Shown in pieces: positions 24,425 to 64,000 of a stretch of 64,000 nucleotides of DNA. The notes beneath the pieces are model-generated. The model did not search any database. It was given only the letters and a program-made list of their open reading frames with translations, and had not been told where the DNA came from. This DNA is from Fibrobacter sp. UWB5. GTDB taxonomy: Bacteria > Fibrobacterota > Fibrobacteria > Fibrobacterales > Fibrobacteraceae. The position numbers and the translations under genes are program-made. How positions within the stretch are numbered: position 1 is the first letter of the stretch; each line of letters opens with the position of its first letter. The stretch spans positions 1 through 64,000 of the forward strand of contig NZ_MWQH01000009.1 of NCBI RefSeq assembly GCF_002210295.1, read 5' to 3'.

Positions 24425-26239
24425 ATGATGTCCCCCTTAAAAGTTCTCTTATCTATTATCAGCCTGTTCGCCCTTCTTGGCTTTATCGCCATCATCTACC
24501 CCGATGACGGAATCCATATCGGCGACTCCACGCTCCGCTACCCGAAGCTCACCGAAATCTTCGTAAAGCAGTCCTCCGGCGATTCGCTCAGCGATTCTAC
24601 CCAGGGCGACCCTGAAGAAGCCATCCGTGAAATGATGGAAGCGACCAAGCGCAAAGAGTTTTCCGCCTTCAGCGACTCGCTCAAGTTCTACGAGGACTTT
24701 TTTGAAAAGGGCAAAACGCGTTTCGATTTGCCGAACAACGACGCCACGTGGTTTGACCGATTCTTCTTGCACCTGGAACTCGCCTCCCTCGATTCGAACG
24801 TTGTACACGTCGTGCATTACGGCGACTCACAGCTTGAAGAAGACCGAATCTCGGCCACCATTCGCGAAGACTTGCAAGATGAATTCGGTGGCGCAGGCCC
24901 CGGCATGATGCCCGCCATTATGACCGTGCCGTCCATGACCACAAGCCATGCCGGTGTGGGCGCGCTTTCGCGCTACATTCTGTTTGGCCCCAAAGAAGAC
25001 GAGGCCGAACACACGCGCTATGGACCTCTGGCCCAGCTCGCCAAGCTTGAAGGCGAAGCCTCCATTACCATTCAACGCCGCAAAGAACGCAAGAAACAGT
25101 TCAGCCACGTGGGCGGTTACAGCACCATCCGCCTTCTCACCAACAAGAATGCTCGCCTCAAGGTCAGACTCAACGTCAACCAGACCGTTGTAGACACCGT
25201 AGGCCAAGAAGCCGACGGCACGCCGAAAGAAAAGCATTCCACCAAGGTGGTTGACGCTGGCGAACCGATTATCGACACTTACAATAAACTCAAAGTGTAC
25301 ACCTGGAAGCTGAAGGATACCACGTCCATTGCGAAGATGTACCTTTCGGGCAATGCCGAAGTCTACGCCATTTCTGCAGACGGCGCTTACGGTGTCGCAG
25401 TCGACAACGTGGCCATGCGCGGCTCTTCGGGCACAATCTTCCACCGCATCGATTCTGAACTTTTGGCAGAATCTTACAAGGCCATGAACGTCCGCCTGAT
25501 TATTATGGAATACGGCGGCAACCTGGTGCCGAGCATCAATTCGGGCAACATCGACTGGACCAAGAAAATCATTACGCGCCAAATTCAGGCCGTACAAAAG
25601 GCAAACCCCGATGCGGACATCTTGTTCATTGGCCCGGCTGACATGGCCCGTCAAAAAGATGGCCAGTGGCAGACCTACGCCGGCTTGAACATGACAATCA
25701 AGGCTCTACGCGAAGTCGCTCTTGAAAACGGAGCCGCCTATTGGGACATGCACCGCGTGATGGGCGGAAACGGAGCGATGATCAAGTGGGTGAACAAGGA
25801 ACCCGCCCTCGGCTTTACCGACCACATTCACTTTACCCGCCGCGGCGCCGCCTACATGGGCGATCTGTTCTGCTCAGCCCTGCGCATGCATTACGACTAC
25901 TTCAAGTTCCGCGACCGTCACAACATCAGTGACGAAAAGTTGAAAGAACTGCACCAGTGGAGCGCCGAGAACAAGCCCGCACCCAAGCCTGTCACCAAAC
26001 CCAAGCCCGCTGCCAAACCAGTCAAGAAGGCTGCCCCCGCACCGAAGCCTGCGGCAAAGCCGGCACCGGTCGCAAAACCTGTAGCAAAGCCTGCTCCGGC
26101 ACCGGCTGCAAAACCTGCCGCCAAGCCAGCTGCAAAACCTGTAGCAAAGCAAGCCCCGCTTCCTGCTAAGATCCAGGCAACCAAAACCATTGTCCCGGCG
26201 GCAAAGAAAAATGATATGAAAGGAGCGAAAAAGAAATGA
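24425..26239 (+). CDS. SGNH-hydrolase-like envelope protein with Lys/Pro/Ala tail
   Basis: The 604-residue protein has an N-terminal membrane anchor or uncleaved signal (about 5-25). An SGNH/GDSL-type domain follows, with block I HYGDSQ (nucleophile S135), a Gly/Asn block in EYGGN, and the terminal catalytic pair D466-x-x-H469 in TDHIHF. Residues about 516-590 are a low-complexity KPA-rich tail that may cross the periplasm or bind an acidic polymer. With the next two genes it forms an SGNH-SGNH-MBOAT set, so O-acyl transfer to, or removal from, an exported glycan is the likely job. Two Met codons are adjacent at the start; no Shine-Dalgarno is seen. Confidence 0.78.
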   Translation: MMSPLKVLLSIISLFALLGFIAIIYPDDGIHIGDSTLRYPKLTEIFVKQSSGDSLSDSTQGDPEEAIREMMEATKRKEFSAFSDSLKFYEDFFEKGKTRFDLPNNDATWFDRFFLHLELASLDSNVVHVVHYGDSQLEEDRISATIREDLQDEFGGAGPGMMPAIMTVPSMTTSHAGVGALSRYILFGPKEDEAEHTRYGPLAQLAKLEGEASITIQRRKERKKQFSHVGGYSTIRLLTNKNARLKVRLNVNQTVVDTVGQEADGTPKEKHSTKVVDAGEPIIDTYNKLKVYTWKLKDTTSIAKMYLSGNAEVYAISADGAYGVAVDNVAMRGSSGTIFHRIDSELLAESYKAMNVRLIIMEYGGNLVPSINSGNIDWTKKIITRQIQAVQKANPDADILFIGPADMARQKDGQWQTYAGLNMTIKALREVALENGAAYWDMHRVMGGNGAMIKWVNKEPALGFTDHIHFTRRGAAYMGDLFCSALRMHYDYFKFRDRHNISDEKLKELHQWSAENKPAPKPVTKPKPAAKPVKKAAPAPKPAAKPAPVAKPVAKPAPAPAAKPAAKPAAKPVAKQAPLPAKIQATKTIVPAAKKNDMKGAKKK

Positions 26240-27921
26240 CACGCGTACTCCGGACCTTTGCGTTCATCGCACTTTCTGTTTTTGCACAAAACGTTTTGGC
26301 TAAAGACGCCTCGACGGCGCCGGGCAGCTATAACATAGACCTTTCGCGCTACGACTTTATCGACACCACGCAGAACGTGATCCAGTTTCCCAAGGGCAAC
26401 GCCTCGTTCAACGCTTTCTTTAACAAGATGGATACGCTCGTGTTCGAAAACCGTGGGCAGGTTCGCATTCTGCACGTGGGCGGCTCGCACCTGCAGGCCG
26501 ACGTGATTTCGGGCCGCATTCGCGAGCACCTCATTAAAGAATACCCGGGAGCCTCTGCCGGTCGCGGATTCGTATTCCCTTATTCTGCCGCCCGCACCAA
26601 TACGCCCGCGAGCTACGCCAGCGCTTACAAGGGCATTTGGGACATGAACAAGAACGTGCAGCGTGAAATCAAGAAACCGCTTGGTTTGCTTGGTATTGCC
26701 GTGAGCACCAGCGACCCGCGTTCCGAAATCACATTGCTCCTTGACAGGTACAACTCTACCCCGATTTGGGGCGAAACCAAACTCAGACTTTTTGGCTACA
26801 GCGACAACAACGATGTCGTACCCGTGTTGCGCGTCGATTCGACCGATATCTACGGCATTCTCGATTCCGCAAGCCAGAGCTACGTGTTTACAAGTCCGCG
26901 CCCGATTGACACGATTCAAATCGCCTTCCGCTGGATTGATTCCTTGAAGCAGGCCGAAATTGCAAAGTTCATTACCGACTCGCTTTTCCAGGATTCTATC
27001 GCACGCGCCAAGGAAGATTCGGTCAAGAAAGCGAACGGCGATACCGCCCAGAACAAGAAAGATTCCAACGTGATTCCGGCTAAGATTCCGAACAACGTTG
27101 CCCTGCCTGAAGTCGCCCGCGATTCCATGTTCCAAGGTGAATGCGACGTTCTTGATACGGCATGCCTGCGTCGCGAAGAAGCGAAGAGCAAATCTCGCGC
27201 CTGCGCCGAAAAGTTGAACAAGCCTGCCGTCAATTACGCCGAGGGTGAAATCGATTCGACCAACTACGCCAACGAACATTGCATTGAACAGGTCGCTGTA
27301 CCCGATTCCGTCAAGAAAAACGCTCGCCCGCGCTTTACGCTCACCGGCATTCTCACCGAGACCGATGCTCCGGGCATCACCTACACCGGCGTTGGCATTA
27401 ACGGTGCTAAGGTGCACGACTATTTCGAAGAAGTCTGCCCGCAGTTCGAAAAGGAACTGTCCTTCTACAAGCCCGACCTCGTGATTTTTGCCATCGGCAT
27501 TAACGATGCGAACGTGGAAAAATTCAACGACAAGCAGTTTAAAGACGACTACGACAAGCTTATCGCCCGCATCAAGAAGGTCAACCCGAACGTAGCGATT
27601 ATCTTCGAGACCAACAACGACATGTATCGCAAAGTCAAGAAGAAACGCTTCGTGCAGCACCCGAACGGCGATGTTGCCCGCAAGGCATTCTTTGCCCTGG
27701 CTGAAAAGCACAAGGCCGGCGTTTGGGACAAGTTCGGCATTATGGGCGGCCTCGGCTCCATGTCCAAGTGGGAACGTGCCGACCTCGCCAAAGCCGACAA
27801 AGTGCATTTCAAACTTTCCGGCTACAACCTCCTTGGCGATCTGTTCTACAAGGCTATCATCAACAGCTATCAAGAACACATCGCAAATCTCCCCGCACAA
27901 ACCAAGTCTGAAGTGAAATAA
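26236..27921 (+). CDS. Second SGNH-hydrolase-like exported protein
   Basis: This 561-residue protein overlaps the previous gene by ATGA, implying translational coupling. It has a signal peptide (about 1-22, VLA cleavage). Block I is unusual: HVGGSH has Gly where most family members have Asp, but the nucleophile is kept as S84. Block III GINDAN and the terminal D521-x-x-H524 in ADKVHF are also kept, so an active triad is likely. A charged stretch of about 90 residues (about 250-340) interrupts the domain. It is paralogous in layout to the upstream protein. A complementary role in acyl transfer or esterase activity in the same pathway is inferred. Confidence 0.76.
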   Translation: MTRVLRTFAFIALSVFAQNVLAKDASTAPGSYNIDLSRYDFIDTTQNVIQFPKGNASFNAFFNKMDTLVFENRGQVRILHVGGSHLQADVISGRIREHLIKEYPGASAGRGFVFPYSAARTNTPASYASAYKGIWDMNKNVQREIKKPLGLLGIAVSTSDPRSEITLLLDRYNSTPIWGETKLRLFGYSDNNDVVPVLRVDSTDIYGILDSASQSYVFTSPRPIDTIQIAFRWIDSLKQAEIAKFITDSLFQDSIARAKEDSVKKANGDTAQNKKDSNVIPAKIPNNVALPEVARDSMFQGECDVLDTACLRREEAKSKSRACAEKLNKPAVNYAEGEIDSTNYANEHCIEQVAVPDSVKKNARPRFTLTGILTETDAPGITYTGVGINGAKVHDYFEEVCPQFEKELSFYKPDLVIFAIGINDANVEKFNDKQFKDDYDKLIARIKKVNPNVAIIFETNNDMYRKVKKKRFVQHPNGDVARKAFFALAEKHKAGVWDKFGIMGGLGSMSKWERADLAKADKVHFKLSGYNLLGDLFYKAIINSYQEHIANLPAQTKSEVK

Positions 27922-27932
27922 CCGACCCCCTT

Positions 27933-29783
27933 ATGCTCGACTACGTCATTCCATTCCTCACTCGAACCTTTGCGTTTGACCCGAACAGTCCGCTGCTGTT
28001 TACGCAGTTCTATTTCTGGGGATTTTTCGCCTTTGTATTTGCGGCCCTCACCCTGATCAAGAATCGCATTCTGTTGCGCAACGCCTTCCTGTTTGCGACC
28101 AGCATGTTCTTCTACTACAAGACGAGCGGCAGCTACGTTTGCATTCTCATTTTCTGCGTGGTAGCGAACTTCTTTATCGGCAAGTGGATTGAAAAAGCCG
28201 AGGAGCAGTGGAAAAAGAAGCTTTGGATGATCATCGTGGTCATCATCGACCTGCTAGTGCTTTGCTACTATAAATACTCTTACTTCTTCTTGGATGCCCT
28301 CTACGACTTTACCGGTATCGAACTGCACGTGTACAACTTCTTCGCCGCCGCAAGCAACAAGATGTTCGGCACGCATTCGCTGGTAGACACCATCATTTTG
28401 CCGGTGGGTATTTCGTTCTTCACCTTCCAGGCAATGAGTTACTGCATCGATATTTACCGCGGTAAAATCAAGGCTGTCGACAACATCCTGAATTTTGGCT
28501 TTTACCTCACGTTCTTCCCGCAGCTTGTGGCTGGCCCGATTGTGCGCGCCGACAAGTTCGTGCCGCAACTTTACCGCAAGTATTTCTTGCCGCGCCGTAC
28601 CTTTGGCATTGCCGTGTTCTGGATTCTGAATGGCCTCGCCAAGAAGATCATTCTGAGTGACTACCTGGCCACCAACTTCGTGGACCGCGTTTTCGACACT
28701 CCCCTGCTGTTTACCGGCCTCGAAAACCTGATTGCGCTCTTTGCTTACTCGCTGCAGGTGTACGCCGACTTCTCGGGCTATACCGACATTGCCATTGGCG
28801 TTGCCCTCCTCATGGGATTCCGCCTGCCGCAGAACTTTAACAGCCCTTACAAGGCCCTCAGTCCCACCGAATTCTGGCGCCGCTGGCACATCAGTCTTTC
28901 TAGCTGGTGGCGCGACTACCTGTACATTCCCTTGGGCGGTAACCGTAACGCGACCATCGGCACCTATTTCTGGATGGCATTTTTGAGCCTTGTGGCAATC
29001 ATGCTTTCGGGCAGCGTGCTCGTGGGTGTCATGCTTGCCCTGTTATTCATCTACATTTCCGTTGTCGCCTACTTTAGGCCCGAATCGCGCAAGTTCATTA
29101 CCACCAACATGAACGCCATGGCCACCCAGATCGTGGGCGGTTGGTGGCACGGTGCCAGCTGGAACTTTATCATTTGGGGTGGCCTGAACGGCTTTGGCCA
29201 GGTATTCAACAAAATCTGGTGCAAGCGCAGCCTCAAGTTCCGCGCCATCGCCTCGTTCATCCTGTTCGCTGCAAGCGCCATAATCTTCAAGCAGACGCAC
29301 ACCGCCATCTTCGCGATTACTGCAGTCTACTTCGGCGTGCTCTTCACCGGCATTTACGCCGTATGGGTGTTCCGCCTGTTCAGCGACAAGACCTTCCACT
29401 GGATTTATGTTGCCTGGAACGTGTCGCTCACCTTCGTTTTCATCACGTTTACGCGACTCTTCTTCCGCGCAGGTTCGAACCTAGACCCTGCCGAAGCCAA
29501 CGAAGTCGCCTGGAATACCGCCAAGAACATGGTACAGCAAATGGGTTGCGCCTGGAAATGGGGCACTCTTGGCACTATAGCCTGGGAACACATCAACATC
29601 ATTCTCGTGTTCATCGCGGGCATGCTTATCCACTGGATTCCCAAGAAGGTCAAGAGCCGCTACCGCATCGCATTCGCCTCGCAGCCGCTCCCCCTCATGG
29701 TTGCAAGCACCGCGTTCATCATCTTCGTAATCTACCAGTTCATGAGCGCAGACTCCTGCCCGTTCATCTACTTCCAGTTCTAG
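27933..29783 (+). CDS. MBOAT-family O-acyltransferase (AlgI/DltB-like)
   Basis: The 616-residue inner-membrane protein has about 12 hydrophobic segments. It carries the MBOAT core NFNSPYKALSPTEFWRRWHISLSSWWRDYLYIPLGGN-type region and the catalytic His406 in WWHGASWNF. Such proteins move acyl groups, usually acetyl, across the membrane to a partner that modifies an exported polysaccharide or teichoic-acid-like polymer. The two SGNH proteins immediately upstream (11 nt from the second) are natural partners, as AlgJ/AlgX are for AlgI. Which glycan is modified is unknown. A structured element and GTCAT repeats follow the gene. Confidence 0.9.
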   Translation: MLDYVIPFLTRTFAFDPNSPLLFTQFYFWGFFAFVFAALTLIKNRILLRNAFLFATSMFFYYKTSGSYVCILIFCVVANFFIGKWIEKAEEQWKKKLWMIIVVIIDLLVLCYYKYSYFFLDALYDFTGIELHVYNFFAAASNKMFGTHSLVDTIILPVGISFFTFQAMSYCIDIYRGKIKAVDNILNFGFYLTFFPQLVAGPIVRADKFVPQLYRKYFLPRRTFGIAVFWILNGLAKKIILSDYLATNFVDRVFDTPLLFTGLENLIALFAYSLQVYADFSGYTDIAIGVALLMGFRLPQNFNSPYKALSPTEFWRRWHISLSSWWRDYLYIPLGGNRNATIGTYFWMAFLSLVAIMLSGSVLVGVMLALLFIYISVVAYFRPESRKFITTNMNAMATQIVGGWWHGASWNFIIWGGLNGFGQVFNKIWCKRSLKFRAIASFILFAASAIIFKQTHTAIFAITAVYFGVLFTGIYAVWVFRLFSDKTFHWIYVAWNVSLTFVFITFTRLFFRAGSNLDPAEANEVAWNTAKNMVQQMGCAWKWGTLGTIAWEHINIILVFIAGMLIHWIPKKVKSRYRIAFASQPLPLMVASTAFIIFVIYQFMSADSCPFIYFQF

Positions 29784-53647: not shown

Positions 53648-55534
53648 TTAGCGGTTGACCCTAACCGTGTTCAAGTAGTTACCCTGCTTGACCATGTAGA
53701 CACCCGGCTTGTGGAACTTGGCGAACAGCACATCCTTCATGTCGCTGCCGGCCTGCATTTCCACAGTACCCAGGTAACGGCCCTGCATGTCGAGCACCTG
53801 GAAGGTTCCACTCATATCCTGGAGCTTGATCGTCTGAGCAAACAGTGCGGTAGTAGAGCTGCTCGGGACATTCGCTTCGCTGGAGCTGGACTTCTTATCT
53901 TCCTTGCTGGAGCTGGACTTGGGTTCTTCGCTAGAGCTGGATTCCGGTTCCGGCTGAGCAAGCGGATGAGCCTTGTCCGTCATCTTGAAGTAAGAGACAT
54001 CGAAGGAACCCGAGCCACCACCGGCTTCGACAAGCACCTTGGCTTCGTACATCTTACCCATCTTCATACCGAGTTCTTCCCACTTCTTGAAGTGAGCGGT
54101 AACATCGATATGACCGCAGGAACGAGCTCCACCCTTACGCTTGCTGAAGTACTGCGGGAAGGTCTGGTTACCCTTGATAGAGGGGGCGTTATTACGCTGG
54201 TTCTGATAAATTTCATAAGTTGCACCATCAACCGTGAACTCACCCTTCTTGGAACCCAGAAGATTTGCACCCGGTTCGCTGAACCAGTCATCCACGATGT
54301 AGTATTCTACGAGCGGGTCGACAGTCCAACCATAGATACCGATATAGTTGTAACCACCGGCATTACCCTGCTTGCTCCACTTGAAGTAAGCATCGATAGG
54401 ACCAAGTTCTTGGTAAGTCTTGTCTTCGTTGTACTTGAAGCCCACACGGGCAAGGAAGTCGTTGGTGCCGTTCCAGCTGGCCTTATAAGTACCATTATCA
54501 TAGAACGTCATGTTGTTGTTGCCGCCCTGGTACCAGATTTCGTAATGGTACGGAGAGCTGCCGACGTTACCCGTCACGCTCTGGTTGTTCTGGCCCTGAG
54601 TTGTCTTGCTTTCACCCTGGTGGCCCATTTCGTCCTTACAGGCGTCGATAGTCGTAGAGGTAGAACCACCGTTACCCTTAGAGGAGCTGGACTTAACTGC
54701 AGCGCTCGAAGAGCTGGACTTGGCGCCAGAAGCACTGGACTTCGGAGTGTCACCGTTAGAAACATACACCTTGGCATGCGGGAAGTCCATATGGCCACCA
54801 TTAACTTGACCATTGACGTTACCAGCTTCACCAAGCACCTTGGCTTCGTAAAGCTTACCCATGGTGAGGCCCATCTTTTCCCACTGTCTCATGTGTTCGG
54901 AAATATTGATGGTACCGCAATCGCGCGGCGAGGTACGCACGCTGAAATACTGATAGAACGTGACGTTACCGGAGTTCTTAATGGCCGGACCGGTACGGGT
55001 GTTACGATAAACGGTATAGGTACCGCCGTCAACCGTAATGGTACCCTTTCTTTCGTTACCGATCCAGCTACCCGGCATGTCGTTGGCGAGGGTATTGTCA
55101 ATCACGTAGTATTCAACAAGGTTACTTGCTGTTCCGGGAACGCCTTCCATCCAGCCGTAGATACCGATATAGGAGTAACCCACATTACTTGCGCCACTTT
55201 TCACAAGTTTGAACTCGGCAATCATGTCACCGCCAAGTTCCTTGTAAGTCTTGTTACTGCCAAGAGAAAGGCCCGCACGGCAAAGATAGTCCTTGGCACC
55301 TGTGATAGTGCAGTCCATGGAACCGTCGCTATAGAAGGTAGCACTACCGCCATGACCGTTTTCGTCCCAGAGTTCGTAACCGATATCGCCGATTTTACCT
55401 GTCTGGTTCGAAGTAATCGTTACTTTTTGGCCAGAATGCTGTGCATTGCTACAGAAATCCTGTGCATATGCCCCAGCTACACCCAAAGTCAAAGCCAAAC
55501 CAACTTTGACGCCAGATTTGAATAGAGTTTTCAT
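53648..55534 (-). CDS. xynC: Two-domain GH11 xylanase XynC
   Basis: The 628-residue enzyme carries two complete GH11 domains, as in XynC of F. succinogenes. Domain A (26-258) has E141 (LVEYYVID) and E236 (LGEAGN). A Ser-rich linker (264-295) leads to domain B (298-518), with E410 (LVEYYIVDD) and E503 (LVEAGG). A second Ser linker (about 530-565) precedes a C-terminal tail (566-628) with FQVLDMQGRYLGTVEM. Domains A and B are clearly divergent. Both catalytic pairs are intact, so both should be active on xylan. AGGAG precedes the ATG, and a TATATTTT box lies 33 nt upstream. Confidence 0.95.
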   Translation of the reverse strand: MKTLFKSGVKVGLALTLGVAGAYAQDFCSNAQHSGQKVTITSNQTGKIGDIGYELWDENGHGGSATFYSDGSMDCTITGAKDYLCRAGLSLGSNKTYKELGGDMIAEFKLVKSGASNVGYSYIGIYGWMEGVPGTASNLVEYYVIDNTLANDMPGSWIGNERKGTITVDGGTYTVYRNTRTGPAIKNSGNVTFYQYFSVRTSPRDCGTINISEHMRQWEKMGLTMGKLYEAKVLGEAGNVNGQVNGGHMDFPHAKVYVSNGDTPKSSASGAKSSSSSAAVKSSSSKGNGGSTSTTIDACKDEMGHQGESKTTQGQNNQSVTGNVGSSPYHYEIWYQGGNNNMTFYDNGTYKASWNGTNDFLARVGFKYNEDKTYQELGPIDAYFKWSKQGNAGGYNYIGIYGWTVDPLVEYYIVDDWFSEPGANLLGSKKGEFTVDGATYEIYQNQRNNAPSIKGNQTFPQYFSKRKGGARSCGHIDVTAHFKKWEELGMKMGKMYEAKVLVEAGGGSGSFDVSYFKMTDKAHPLAQPEPESSSSEEPKSSSSKEDKKSSSSEANVPSSSTTALFAQTIKLQDMSGTFQVLDMQGRYLGTVEMQAGSDMKDVLFAKFHKPGVYMVKQGNYLNTVRVNR

Positions 55535-59322: not shown

Positions 59323-62007
59323 CTACTTTTGGAGGTCTACAAACAGCGAATCAAGGCGTTCTGACAACTGTTTTGCACCCTCCCTACTCAGATGGTCTGT
59401 ATTGTACGCCATCGACGAAGTATAGTCGTGTTTGCCCATCTTATTTTCGTCCATCATGACCGCATTCAGCTTCGCTGCGCGCTTCAATAATTCCTCTGCA
59501 TGCGACCGTCTTCCGGCATATATGCCGAACGCCCCCGTCTTGGCATAACCCGGATTTTGAGGGGGCACAACCAATATCACTTGGACTCCTTTTTCAACCA
59601 AGGAATTGACGACAAATTTGTACAAAGCCATGTTGTAATCCACATCGTCGTCATCCAGCTCATACTTCATCGTATCGTGCACAACCGTTGCCTTTCCCCA
59701 CCCATTCGAGGGCATCAGGAATTCGTCGTAATCGTAAGGTTGAGTCTGTTCTGCAATCGGCTTGTACGATTCTTCTACAAGTTCTACAAATCCTTTCGGA
59801 ATGGAATCCTTCCAGAACTTATGCGTCTTGTCATATTTAAAACCAGGCGATTTTTTATAGACAGGCGACCAGAAGAGAGCTTCCTTGTCCCACATGAAAT
59901 CAGGCGAGAACTCCAGCACCGCATACTTCAACTTCGGCATATGAGTCAAGACATAGTTGAGAGTCAAGAATGAAATCGCATGAATATCGCCCGAAGGGAA
60001 TCCCATATTCAAAACGCTTTCGGAATGGATAAACGAAGAATTGATTCCGAACATCACTCTCGAAGAGCCGAGAACCACCGCAGTCACGGTGTCGTGGGAT
60101 TTCCAGAACCATTCCATCTTGACACGCAAATCGAGCGCATACGATTCCATTTGATCGGTATAGTAAACGCCTGCGCTATCGATATCCAAAAGCGGCGGTA
60201 CAAAGACGCGTTCATCGACATCGAGCCATAACGCCGGATGCCATAGTTCTGTACCCTGAGCCAGTTCAACCCAACGCTCTGTATACACATTTGCAAGAAT
60301 CAGTTTGCGATGCGCGCCTTCGCTATTCACGAGTGTCGCCACAATCAAGGAATCCACGAGAGGAACCCATTCCGGATGATCAAACGTATAACCTTCAGGA
60401 GCCTCGAGCGAATGTACCAGATTGCCGGTGCTATCGGCAAAGAAAATCCTCTTGTGCGTTTCGTAATTGCTACGGACAAACTGGCGACCCGTCTTGCCGC
60501 CAAAATCAAGGAACAGGGTCATCTTGTTATTGTTCCTGTTCAGCGAGGCATTGCAAGCCTGCTCCCCATTGTACCAGATTTCGGAACGTCCATCGCGATT
60601 GGCCCGAAGGAGTCGCGCCCCTGTGACAGCCAGGCGGTTGTCATCGGAAACGCCACCATGGTACGCGCCATCAAACAATTTCTTGGGCGTTCCAAATTTC
60701 CCGTTCGAGAACTTGACCTGCCATGTCGACGTCTGCGCAAAAGATTCGTCATTCTTGTTATTCGCCGCACTTGTCACATAGACAATCACGGTGTCGCCAT
60801 TGGCAAGCACACGCCAGCGCGGAATCACCGCCGATTTCACATTCAGCTTGATTAAAGATTTATCGGACGCATCTATCTTGCGCACGTAAAGTTCAGAATT
60901 ATCGGCAACGCCTTCAATACCCGTACAGAAGGCGACCCACTTGCCGTCGGGCGATATATCCGGATGATACGCCGAAACGTCTGCGCTCAATTCCTTCGCG
61001 ACCAGATCGTTTTTACTGAAATCCACATAGTACAAGTTACCGCTTTTATCTTCGCGGAATACAAGTTTTCCCTTATTGGTCGCCGCAAGCGACTTGAACT
61101 TTTTACTGCTTACCGACACCGAAACATCAGAATCTGATTCACGCTCCACATTTCCGATTTGCGAAGCATGGGGAATCGCGCCCAAGGCAAGACGGAAACC
61201 GATATATTCCGCCTTCGTCGATGCGGTCACCAGATAGATATCGCCGCGAGTGTAAGGTTTAATGGTTTCAGGCGCGTTACGGAAACTGCCACCCTTCACG
61301 ACTCGTTCATCGGGGCCGTAATCCCTTGCGCCACCGACAAAGTCAACCCATTCCTCTTCTGTAAACGTAACCAGGTAATCCCCCACCCATTCCATGGCAT
61401 TGCCCGCCATGTCGCAAATGCTATCGAGCGTATAATACGACGTGCAGACATCATGCAACTCGTAGTCGGAATTGGCGCTCGTCCACGATTCTTTCGGCTC
61501 CCAGCCGCGAGTCGTCACAAACACCCATTCCGCTTCGGTCGGCAAGCGGTACCCGAGTACATCCCAATGGGGCTTAAACGATTCTAGCCCGACACAAGAG
61601 CTGTCATCGTCAAATATGGCTTTTGAATAGGAATAAACCGTATCAAAGCCTTCTTCCTTACTGCGCTTGTTGGCATAAAGCACCGCATCAAAGAAGGTCA
61701 CATCGGTTACAGGCAAATCACCGCAATCGAGTCCCATTTCATTGCAGGTGACTTCATGCCGCCCCATCATAAAATCGTAATCGAACGAAACTTTCATCGC
61801 CGGGCCATCCTTAATCGATGCCGAGGATTCGTCCGTTCCCAGAATCACGATTTTTCCGTTCGCACGCATGAGCGCAAAATCTTTCAAATCCAACGAGTCC
61901 AAGGCACTAGGGTCATCATGCGGAATCGAAACGTATTCCGAATTAGAACACCCCTCAAAACTGAACAAGGCCAGCAATGCGATTATGCAGTAAAAAAACT
62001 TCATCAT
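59323..62007 (-). CDS. TIGR02171-type lipoprotein: FGE-sulfatase-like, beta-propeller and SGNH-like domains
   Basis: The 894-residue lipoprotein (Cys20, FEGC) starts with a formylglycine-generating-enzyme-like domain (about 45-280): YRLPTEAEWVF, CDMAGNAMEWVGDY, VVKGGSF, GFRLALG. A TolB/WD-like propeller follows (about 305-600; HPDISPDGKWVAF). The C-terminal about 260 residues look like an SGNH hydrolase, with nucleophile block VVLGSSRVMFG near 645 and the terminal pair in TDHLSREG near 872. The family is known as a Fibrobacter paralogous family of unknown function; the SGNH assignment is my inference. It overlaps the next TIGR02171 gene by ATGA. Confidence 0.82.
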   Translation of the reverse strand: MMKFFYCIIALLALFSFEGCSNSEYVSIPHDDPSALDSLDLKDFALMRANGKIVILGTDESSASIKDGPAMKVSFDYDFMMGRHEVTCNEMGLDCGDLPVTDVTFFDAVLYANKRSKEEGFDTVYSYSKAIFDDDSSCVGLESFKPHWDVLGYRLPTEAEWVFVTTRGWEPKESWTSANSDYELHDVCTSYYTLDSICDMAGNAMEWVGDYLVTFTEEEWVDFVGGARDYGPDERVVKGGSFRNAPETIKPYTRGDIYLVTASTKAEYIGFRLALGAIPHASQIGNVERESDSDVSVSVSSKKFKSLAATNKGKLVFREDKSGNLYYVDFSKNDLVAKELSADVSAYHPDISPDGKWVAFCTGIEGVADNSELYVRKIDASDKSLIKLNVKSAVIPRWRVLANGDTVIVYVTSAANNKNDESFAQTSTWQVKFSNGKFGTPKKLFDGAYHGGVSDDNRLAVTGARLLRANRDGRSEIWYNGEQACNASLNRNNNKMTLFLDFGGKTGRQFVRSNYETHKRIFFADSTGNLVHSLEAPEGYTFDHPEWVPLVDSLIVATLVNSEGAHRKLILANVYTERWVELAQGTELWHPALWLDVDERVFVPPLLDIDSAGVYYTDQMESYALDLRVKMEWFWKSHDTVTAVVLGSSRVMFGINSSFIHSESVLNMGFPSGDIHAISFLTLNYVLTHMPKLKYAVLEFSPDFMWDKEALFWSPVYKKSPGFKYDKTHKFWKDSIPKGFVELVEESYKPIAEQTQPYDYDEFLMPSNGWGKATVVHDTMKYELDDDDVDYNMALYKFVVNSLVEKGVQVILVVPPQNPGYAKTGAFGIYAGRRSHAEELLKRAAKLNAVMMDENKMGKHDYTSSMAYNTDHLSREGAKQLSERLDSLFVDLQK

Positions 62008-64000
62008 CTAGACTCTAGAGTAATCAACAAAGAATCAAGGCGTGCTGTCAGCTTTTCTGCACCGGTCCAGCACAAATGATCGTAGTCATAAGCGACATCG
62101 CCCAAATAATCATGGTCACCCATTTTATTTTCATCCATCAAAACGAAATTCTTCGTTTCCGATTCAACTTTTCTCAATCGTTCAATCAAGTTTTCTGCCA
62201 CAGAGCGGCGCATTCCATGGCGGCCATAGCTGCCCGTCTTTTTGTAATATGGACTAATCGGAGTAATCAAGCCGACAACCATCACGTCGTGCTGTTCGGC
62301 CATCTTGAGGATTTTATCCAGCTGCGCATAGTTCAATTCATAGCGGCGGCTATCGTCGCTCCAGGTGCTATCGACAACCACGTCTGCAAATTCCTTGCCG
62401 CCGCTCCCCCAGTCAGAAATACATTCCGTACGCATCCAGCCATGCGGATCGATAATGTCGGACTGCATCTTATAGGCCTCAGCCACTTCGACAGCCCTTT
62501 CTACAAACGCGCTATCGATTTCACCACGCCAGTAATCATGATTGCGGTCATACTTGAATCCAGGAGCATCACCAAAATTAAGCGCCATGCTTTCGCCCGG
62601 TTCGTATTCGCCCCACAAGTCAAAATCAATGCCGATCACAAGATATTTCAAATGCGAGAAATGCGTCGAAATGTAGGTTTCATAAAGACTATCAATACAA
62701 TGCATATCGCAAGGGATTGTCGAGAGGTTAATAGCCTTCATGCTCAAGAAATCCGGAGCAACTGCCGCCTGCATGTGCGAATTTCCCAAAGTCACGACCT
62801 CGGCCGAATCGCGGTATGTCCACAGCACAGGCATCTTTTGCGTCAGGTAATGCGTCGACTGGCCATTTTCAGAATAGTAAAGTCCAAGGCTATCATAATC
62901 CCAGCGCGAATTCTTATCACGATGGTGAGCCCAAAGCACAGGGTGCCAAAGTTCTTCGCCTTCAACAAGAGACAGCATTTCGCCCGTATAGGAATTAACC
63001 AGCACTACTTTTTTATGGCTTCCATTCATGTCGGCGAGCGTCGCCACAAAGAACGAGTCGGAGCCAAGAATCCATTCCGTATGGTCAAAGCTATAACCTT
63101 CGGGAGCCGCGACCGAGCCAATCAATTTACCAGTGCTATCGGCAATCAGCGCCCGTTCATGCGTACCGTAAGATTCTCCCACGAACTTGCGACCAGTCTT
63201 GCCGCCAAAATCAAGGAACAGCGTCTTGTTTTCGCCTCCCTGACTGAGCGATACGTTACAGGCCTGATTTTGATTGTACCAGACTTCCGGTTGGCCATTC
63301 ACATTGGCACGCAAAAGGCGTGCGCCCGAAACCGCCAGGCGATCGTTCTTGGATACGCCGCCATGATACCCGCCGTCAAAAAGCTTTTCGGGCTTTCCGA
63401 ACTTGCCTTTCGAAAAACGGACTTGCCAAGTTTCTTGTTTGGCAAAGGCATCCTCTTCTTTATTGCTGCCGGCATCGTTCACATAGACAATCACCGTATC
63501 ACCATTTTCCAGAATTCGCCAACGCGGAATCGCTGCCGATTCAGCCGGAAGTTCAATCAAGGTGGAATCGCCTTCGTCCAAGCGGGACACATAGACCTTC
63601 GACATGCCCGAAATTCCTTCAACTCCTGTGCAGAAGGCGACAAATTTTCCATCGGGAGAAATATCCGGATGGTACGCCGTCACGCCCGTATTCAATTCGA
63701 GAACAGGCGCAGAAGCATCGTTGAAATCCACATACACCAAGACATCACGGGAATCGTCCCTAAAGACCATTTTGGAAAGCGGCTTGTCAATAAACTGCTT
63801 GACCGTATTCGTCCTGACCATCACGGTATACTTCTGCAGGACTTCCTTGCCCTGTTTATCGAGGTAAAGCGGGTTTGGAATGGCACCGAACGCCAAGCGG
63901 AATCCCACATAATTCGCCTTTGTCGAAGAAGCCACCATGTAGACATCGCCACGGTTATACAAATGGAGCGACGCCGGGTCGTTATTGTAGCTACCGCCCT
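62004..64000 (-). CDS. Second TIGR02171-type protein, N-terminus beyond the window
   Basis: The frame stays open to the window edge, so only about 665 C-terminal residues are seen. The first visible residues, GGSYNNDPA then YNRGDVYMV and GFRLAFG, are the end of an FGE-like domain aligned to its neighbour. A propeller follows (HPDISPDGKFVAFCTG). The C-terminal SGNH-like domain has a more classical nucleophile block, VVTLGNSHMQAAV, and the terminal pair in YDHLCWTG. It is transcribed before, and translationally coupled to, the paralogue at 59323-62007: a tandem duplication that has diverged. Confidence 0.8.
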   Translation of the reverse strand, partial: GGSYNNDPASLHLYNRGDVYMVASSTKANYVGFRLAFGAIPNPLYLDKQGKEVLQKYTVMVRTNTVKQFIDKPLSKMVFRDDSRDVLVYVDFNDASAPVLELNTGVTAYHPDISPDGKFVAFCTGVEGISGMSKVYVSRLDEGDSTLIELPAESAAIPRWRILENGDTVIVYVNDAGSNKEEDAFAKQETWQVRFSKGKFGKPEKLFDGGYHGGVSKNDRLAVSGARLLRANVNGQPEVWYNQNQACNVSLSQGGENKTLFLDFGGKTGRKFVGESYGTHERALIADSTGKLIGSVAAPEGYSFDHTEWILGSDSFFVATLADMNGSHKKVVLVNSYTGEMLSLVEGEELWHPVLWAHHRDKNSRWDYDSLGLYYSENGQSTHYLTQKMPVLWTYRDSAEVVTLGNSHMQAAVAPDFLSMKAINLSTIPCDMHCIDSLYETYISTHFSHLKYLVIGIDFDLWGEYEPGESMALNFGDAPGFKYDRNHDYWRGEIDSAFVERAVEVAEAYKMQSDIIDPHGWMRTECISDWGSGGKEFADVVVDSTWSDDSRRYELNYAQLDKILKMAEQHDVMVVGLITPISPYYKKTGSYGRHGMRRSVAENLIERLRKVESETKNFVLMDENKMGDHDYLGDVAYDYDHLCWTGAEKLTARLDSLLITLESR

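Follow-up and report, generated by a model that had tools for sequence, protein, structure and literature searches.

MBOAT-SGNH systems, such as DltBD, PatAB, and AlgIJX, are the closest described counterparts of the genes analyzed here. MBOATs hand an acyl group to the serine of an SGNH protein through FxYxxF, the acyl-shuttle motif (PMC12148441). Not every SGNH enzyme carries the canonical blocks: the block II Gly is replaced in PatB (PMC12148441), the block III Asn is not conserved among PatB1 homologues, and catalytic Ser-His dyads lacking Asp are known from the CE2 esterases, which belong to SGNH (PMC9487903). The best reading of the TIGR02171 proteins is that they work like the SGNH partner in such systems. 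The new observation is that TIGR02171 co-occurs with one specific AlgI-like MBOAT and with AlgX-like SGNH genes across Fibrobacterota.

The window is a stretch of 64,000 nucleotides from Fibrobacter sp. UWB5 (contig NZ_MWQH01000009.1, positions 1 to 64,000). At its end, two TIGR02171 genes are arranged in tandem on the minus strand.

59323..62007, minus strand, TIGR02171 lipoprotein gene 1, 894 aa, complete, assigned by its TIGR02171 match
62004..64000, minus strand, TIGR02171 lipoprotein gene 2, 664 of about 901 aa inside the window, the rest extending to contig position 64709
61948..61950, minus strand, lipobox Cys20 of gene 1, invariant in 72 of 72 sequences of a Fibrobacter-centred alignment

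Both proteins match the NCBIfam model TIGR02171 from end to end, with 1074.2 bits for gene 1 and 804.2 bits for the partial gene 2 against a curated whole-protein cut-off of 544.35 bits. Given the lipobox, membrane-anchored lipoproteins are the best explanation of these sequences. Seven full copies are present in the UWB5 genome, four of them inside 18 kb at the cluster at the window end, and the isolated copies elsewhere are surrounded by housekeeping genes. A locus 96% identical to this one was found in the F. succinogenes MAG RUG10152. The family had been described as Fibrobacter-specific and of unknown function; the restriction to the genus does not hold, as members are distributed over the whole phylum Fibrobacterota. 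In three genomes (G095, G097, and G119) tandem copies are fused into one open frame of about 1840 aa, with six domains per predicted protein. Within the open-licence literature, neither a paper naming TIGR02171 nor a description of the FGE-propeller-SGNH combination was found, and TIGR02171 is not named in those parts of two Fibrobacter envelope proteome papers that a term search covered.

Pfam recognizes an FGE-like domain and one weak propeller repeat, and nothing else. The C-terminal part was analyzed through structure prediction and alignment, which located the following features.

59326..60189, minus strand, SGNH-fold domain of gene 1 (residues 607-894), from the AlphaFold model and structure comparison
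62007..62903, minus strand, SGNH-fold domain of gene 2, from alignment with gene 1
60061..60063, minus strand, predicted nucleophile Ser649 of gene 1 (GSSR), from alignment
59392..59394, minus strand, predicted catalytic His872 of gene 1, from alignment
59401..59403, minus strand, Asn869 of gene 1 at the canonical SGNH acid position (Asp in gene 2), from alignment
62778..62780, minus strand, predicted nucleophile Ser of gene 2 (GNSH), from alignment
62076..62078, minus strand, predicted catalytic His of gene 2 (DYDHL), from alignment

The AlphaFold2 model of this domain, built on 54 aligned sequences, reached pLDDT 94.8 and pTM 0.93, and the SGNH fold of the TIGR02171 C-terminus is thus predicted with high confidence. 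In a Foldseek comparison with the PDB, DltD ranked first (E 1.4e-4), ahead of rhamnogalacturonan acetylesterase and numerous GDSL enzymes. VIA-align gave Z 13.7 for PAF-acetylhydrolase (184 residues), 13.0 for DltD (234 residues), and 12.2 for PatB; among its best 50 rows, all are SGNH-fold chains with Z 11.4-14.0, including designed scaffolds that align like them, and DltD has the longest structural alignment (234-239 residues). Many acetylxylan or rhamnogalacturonan esterases are among the fold relatives. The initial annotation had proposed an SGNH/DltD-like C-terminus, and the predicted fold bears this out, with both DltD and PatB among the matching chains.

Sequence searches detect much less. 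No SGNH domain scored above the Pfam cut-offs in either TIGR02171 protein, and the domain is therefore invisible to routine annotation. DltD (PF04914) was absent from the Pfam matches with E values as high as 10 and from the 25 families listed with E no higher than 5, and AlgX (PF16822) matched weakly in one of 49 members (E 0.033, below the gathering score). A single-sequence search of the domain against the PDB found no match, and a profile search of PDB sequences placed blocks I and V in register with those of PAF-AH in a weak match (E 0.45).

In an alignment of 83 TIGR02171 copies, sampled at the level of the genus, the family, the class, and the phylum, the C-terminal region of about 290 residues keeps Gly-x-Ser and a late His in every copy, as does the Fibrobacter-centred alignment (72/72), so that the motifs are no coincidence. 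The Ser-block motifs quoted in the initial annotation are present in both paralogues. Its estimate of about 220 residues between Ser and DHL also fits: the distance from Ser to His is 223 residues in gene 1 (VVLGSSRVMFG to TDHLSREG) and 234 in gene 2 (VVTLGNSHMQ to YDHLCWTG). One point has to be revised: the Asp of DHL directly adjoins the His, and the canonical acid of block V lies three residues before the His. At that position, D is observed in 46 copies, N in 36, and S in one, so that of Ser and the DxxH pair, Ser and His are kept in every copy and Asp in roughly half of them. Gene 1 has Asn and gene 2 has Asp. Because distant TIGR02171 members carry mostly D, Asn is probably the derived state. 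N and D each occur in both main block III subtypes, which rules out the exchange as a marker of one of them.

The residues invariant in all 83 copies are, in the numbering of gene 1, G647, S649, H860, H872, W770, P816, G722, D726, Y615, and G877. H860 (59428-59430) is a second invariant His, in an HDY motif 12 residues before His872; to our knowledge, such a His has no counterpart in SGNH block V. Blocks II and III are not canonical. For block II, the stretch that follows N667 varies among N, G, A, and S in the alignment and has no fixed Gly; for block III, SLDxD or EFSPD stands instead of the GxND Asn, a placement made by alignment and strand position. Owing to these two blocks and to its position outside the DltD and AlgX families by sequence, the domain is here called a divergent SGNH-fold domain and is not given the name of any SGNH family.

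The remainder of the protein consists of two further domains.

61177..61902, minus strand, FGE/SUMF1-fold domain of gene 1 (residues 36-277), from Pfam, the model, and PDB comparison
60217..61122, minus strand, TolB-like beta-propeller of gene 1 (residues 296-597), from the full-length model and PDB comparison

The model of the whole protein (pLDDT 89.9) has a pTM of 0.66, which leaves the placement of the domains relative to each other uncertain. The model and the PDB comparison confirm the three-part architecture suggested earlier, in which an FGE-like domain and a TolB-like propeller precede the SGNH domain. The FGE-like domain scores 69.1 bits with PF03781, and residues 36-277 align with Treponema denticola TvpA at Z 26.6 and with FGE at about 21 (Z range 20-26). 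FGE activity needs a pair of active-site cysteines. In the TIGR02171 proteins, no Cys is conserved in the segment that follows the conserved KGGS (columns 238-258 of the Fibrobacter-centred alignment). With these cysteines lost, the FGE-like domain should not be an FGE enzyme. It is likely that it binds a ligand rather than oxidizes one, as in TvpA-like proteins. Residues 296-597 align with TolB at Z 22.8, while NCBIfam TolB models score 11.9 and 15.5 bits against cut-offs of 343 and 405, so the match is one of propeller fold alone. A separate PD40 protein encoded beside the cluster was considered as the source of the internal propeller and rejected, as the resemblance is limited to a single stretch of about 50 residues.

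In Fibrobacteraceae, TIGR02171 genes usually lie inside a recurrent operon. It begins with an AlgX-like SGNH lipoprotein (PF16822, 69.7 bits), continues with a transglutaminase-like protein (PF13369) and then TIGR02171 in one to four copies, and closes with a polytopic membrane protein. The UWB5 copy occupies 69885-79586 of the contig, about 6 kb past the window edge, and is separated from the two window genes by a PD40 propeller gene (65496-66701). In more remote families, these partners are found without TIGR02171 between them, next to an MBOAT of the AlgI type and another AlgX-like gene. In distant classes, TIGR02171 stands alone, not adjoining the module, and the link is there one of co-occurrence alone. 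The UWB5 orthologue of the module MBOAT was recognized at 86517-87935 of the contig, with 47-53% identity versus 31-42% for the other two MBOATs. Its C-terminus is FLYFQF, and FxYxxF is seen in every module MBOAT displayed.

The polytopic membrane protein (contig 69885-71408, L151:11886-13409, minus strand) carries TDTDIWWHL near its start and regularly accompanies the module throughout the phylum. Searches of Pfam, NCBIfam, and the PDB gave no meaningful relative, and a GT-C-like glycosyltransferase is only a guess from its sequence. GH11, GH8, and GH5 genes are situated near the TIGR02171 cluster in UWB5; a xylanase with two GH11 matches (53648-55534, minus strand) is found a short distance from the TIGR02171 pair, with a gyrA-like gene upstream of it. 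The window also includes a second MBOAT-SGNH O-acylation locus (24425-29783, plus strand), in which two GDSL/SGNH genes (604 and 561 aa) are followed by an MBOAT of 616 aa. This MBOAT ends in FIYFQF and does not co-vary with TIGR02171, either within or outside the genus.

The distribution of TIGR02171 and the module MBOAT was compared in 168 Fibrobacterota genomes, with TIGR02171 called from a full-length or clear C-terminal match and the module MBOAT at E up to 1e-90. Both were present in 96 genomes and neither in 60, while five had TIGR02171 only and seven the MBOAT only. Within the genus, the counts were 65 with both, two with TIGR02171 only, none with the MBOAT only, and 13 with neither. 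The AlgX-like, transglutaminase-like, and membrane-protein partners behave in the same way as the module MBOAT. As a control, the MBOAT at 27933-29783 of the window gave 65/2/13/0 within the genus in the same order. P values serve only as a guide, since the genomes are not independent and the presence lists were transcribed by hand; with this limit, they were 1 for the control within the genus, 0.82 outside it, 4e-5 for the control pooled over all genomes, which is a between-genus effect, and 1e-7 for the AlgX-like gene against TIGR02171 counted by genus (18/1/3/19).

On the tree of the control MBOAT, the genomes without TIGR02171 do not cluster together but form separate groups. The genus contains at least two of these groups, a large one and the pair G085/G087. 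The gene set has therefore been lost jointly more than once, at least twice within the genus. The Fibrobacter lineages without the TIGR02171, MBOAT, AlgX-like, transglutaminase-like, and membrane-protein genes are G085, G087, and those grouped around G064, G072, G073, G106-G109, G114, G115, G124, and G127. Their surface chemistry could usefully be compared with that of lineages that have the genes. In G065, G132, and G150, TIGR02171 was seen where the module is missing, two of them in the large loss group and one in another genus; partial loss or a binning error could account for these.

The association with the MBOAT/AlgX-like gene set provides independent support for a putative esterase or acyltransferase. 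A probable function of the TIGR02171 proteins is the acylation or deacylation of the cell envelope. It is somewhat probable that they are part of an envelope O-acylation system of Fibrobacterota in which the C-terminal SGNH domain acts as an acyl enzyme through Ser and His. The analysis shows sequence conservation, predicted folds, operon membership in Fibrobacteraceae, co-occurrence over the phylum, and joint loss, whereas catalysis, transfer as opposed to hydrolysis, the acyl group and its acceptor, and a binding function of the FGE-fold domain and the propeller are inferred. The AlgI/DltB-like MBOAT with its C-terminal FxYxxF would move an acyl group across the inner membrane, and the AlgX-like SGNH lipoproteins and the SGNH domains of TIGR02171 would then hand it, by way of an acyl-serine, to a glycan of the envelope or the surface, with Ser649 as the residue that takes the acyl group. 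The FGE-fold domain, devoid of the FGE cysteines, and the propeller would serve as binding and positioning modules, and the paralogues, seven full copies in UWB5, would differ in their acceptors. Within this reading, acceptor-side O-acyl transfer is mildly favored over hydrolysis, and some members may be editing esterases instead. A bolder version is tentative and on the doubtful side: a phylum-specific O-acylation machine, in which the paralogous three-domain lipoproteins would form a third, acceptor-specific stage after the MBOAT and the AlgX-like SGNH proteins, and the pseudo-FGE domain and propeller would choose the surface acceptor.

The abundance of acetylxylan and rhamnogalacturonan esterases among the fold relatives, together with the GH11, GH8, and GH5 genes near this cluster, would suit surface esterases that deacetylate dietary xylan or mannan beside the secreted glycoside hydrolases. 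The phylum-wide tie, however, is to the MBOAT/AlgX-like envelope module and not to CAZyme loci, and the isolated copies in UWB5 are found among housekeeping genes. As the link is to the envelope module and not to CAZyme genes, a role directed at the diet is less likely, and we consider it quite improbable.

The same co-occurrence and operon evidence would be expected if the TIGR02171 proteins were editing esterases of this module, removing the acyl groups added by the MBOAT and AlgX-like proteins, and the SGNH fold is common to esterases and transferases. The non-canonical blocks II and III, and the fact that DltD aligns over the longest stretch, tilt the balance to transferases, neither of them decisively (compare PMC9487903 and PMC12148441), and a general editing function appears unlikely. 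The same blocks, the Asn in place of the acid in 36 of 83 copies, and the neighboring FGE-fold domain without FGE cysteines could also indicate that the SGNH domain is a pseudo-enzyme scaffold whose sole function is to bind acylated glycans or partner proteins, as seems to be the case for the FGE-fold domain. Against such a scaffold stand the strict invariance of Ser and His throughout the phylum and the catalytic Ser-His dyads of CE2 SGNH enzymes (PMC9487903), and we regard it as very improbable.

If the TIGR02171 proteins are indeed acyl enzymes of the envelope, an enzymatic role that can be tested is assigned to a large family of lipoproteins so far annotated as unknown, and Fibrobacterota, which include major cellulose degraders, gain a candidate envelope O-acylation system. 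This would offer a concrete way to study how Fibrobacter modifies its own surface, which may bear on the adhesion to plant fibre. The MBOAT-SGNH systems would be extended by an unusual multi-domain SGNH component.

The Fibrobacterota module shares with DltBD, PatAB, and AlgIJX an AlgI/DltB-like MBOAT with FxYxxF, AlgX-like SGNH lipoproteins, and extra SGNH proteins that are co-inherited. In contrast to those systems, the extra SGNH proteins here occur as several paralogues, each of them a lipoprotein in which a pseudo-FGE domain and a propeller accompany the SGNH domain, and the operon adds a transglutaminase-like protein and an unnamed polytopic membrane protein. DltD resembles the TIGR02171 domain in fold and in the length of the structural alignment, while the TIGR02171 proteins gave no Pfam DltD match in the searches made, are lipoproteins with two extra domains, and come from a Gram-negative phylum. 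AlgX and AlgJ belong to the same SGNH superfamily, and a genuine AlgX-like gene is located in the same operon, whereas the TIGR02171 SGNH domain itself matches PF16822 weakly and in a single member. Residues 36-277 have the fold of FGE and of T. denticola TvpA; unlike FGE, they have no conserved cysteine at the active-site segment. The propeller of residues 296-597 resembles that of TolB, but no TolB N-terminal domain was seen in TIGR02171 and the TolB models remain far below their cut-offs.
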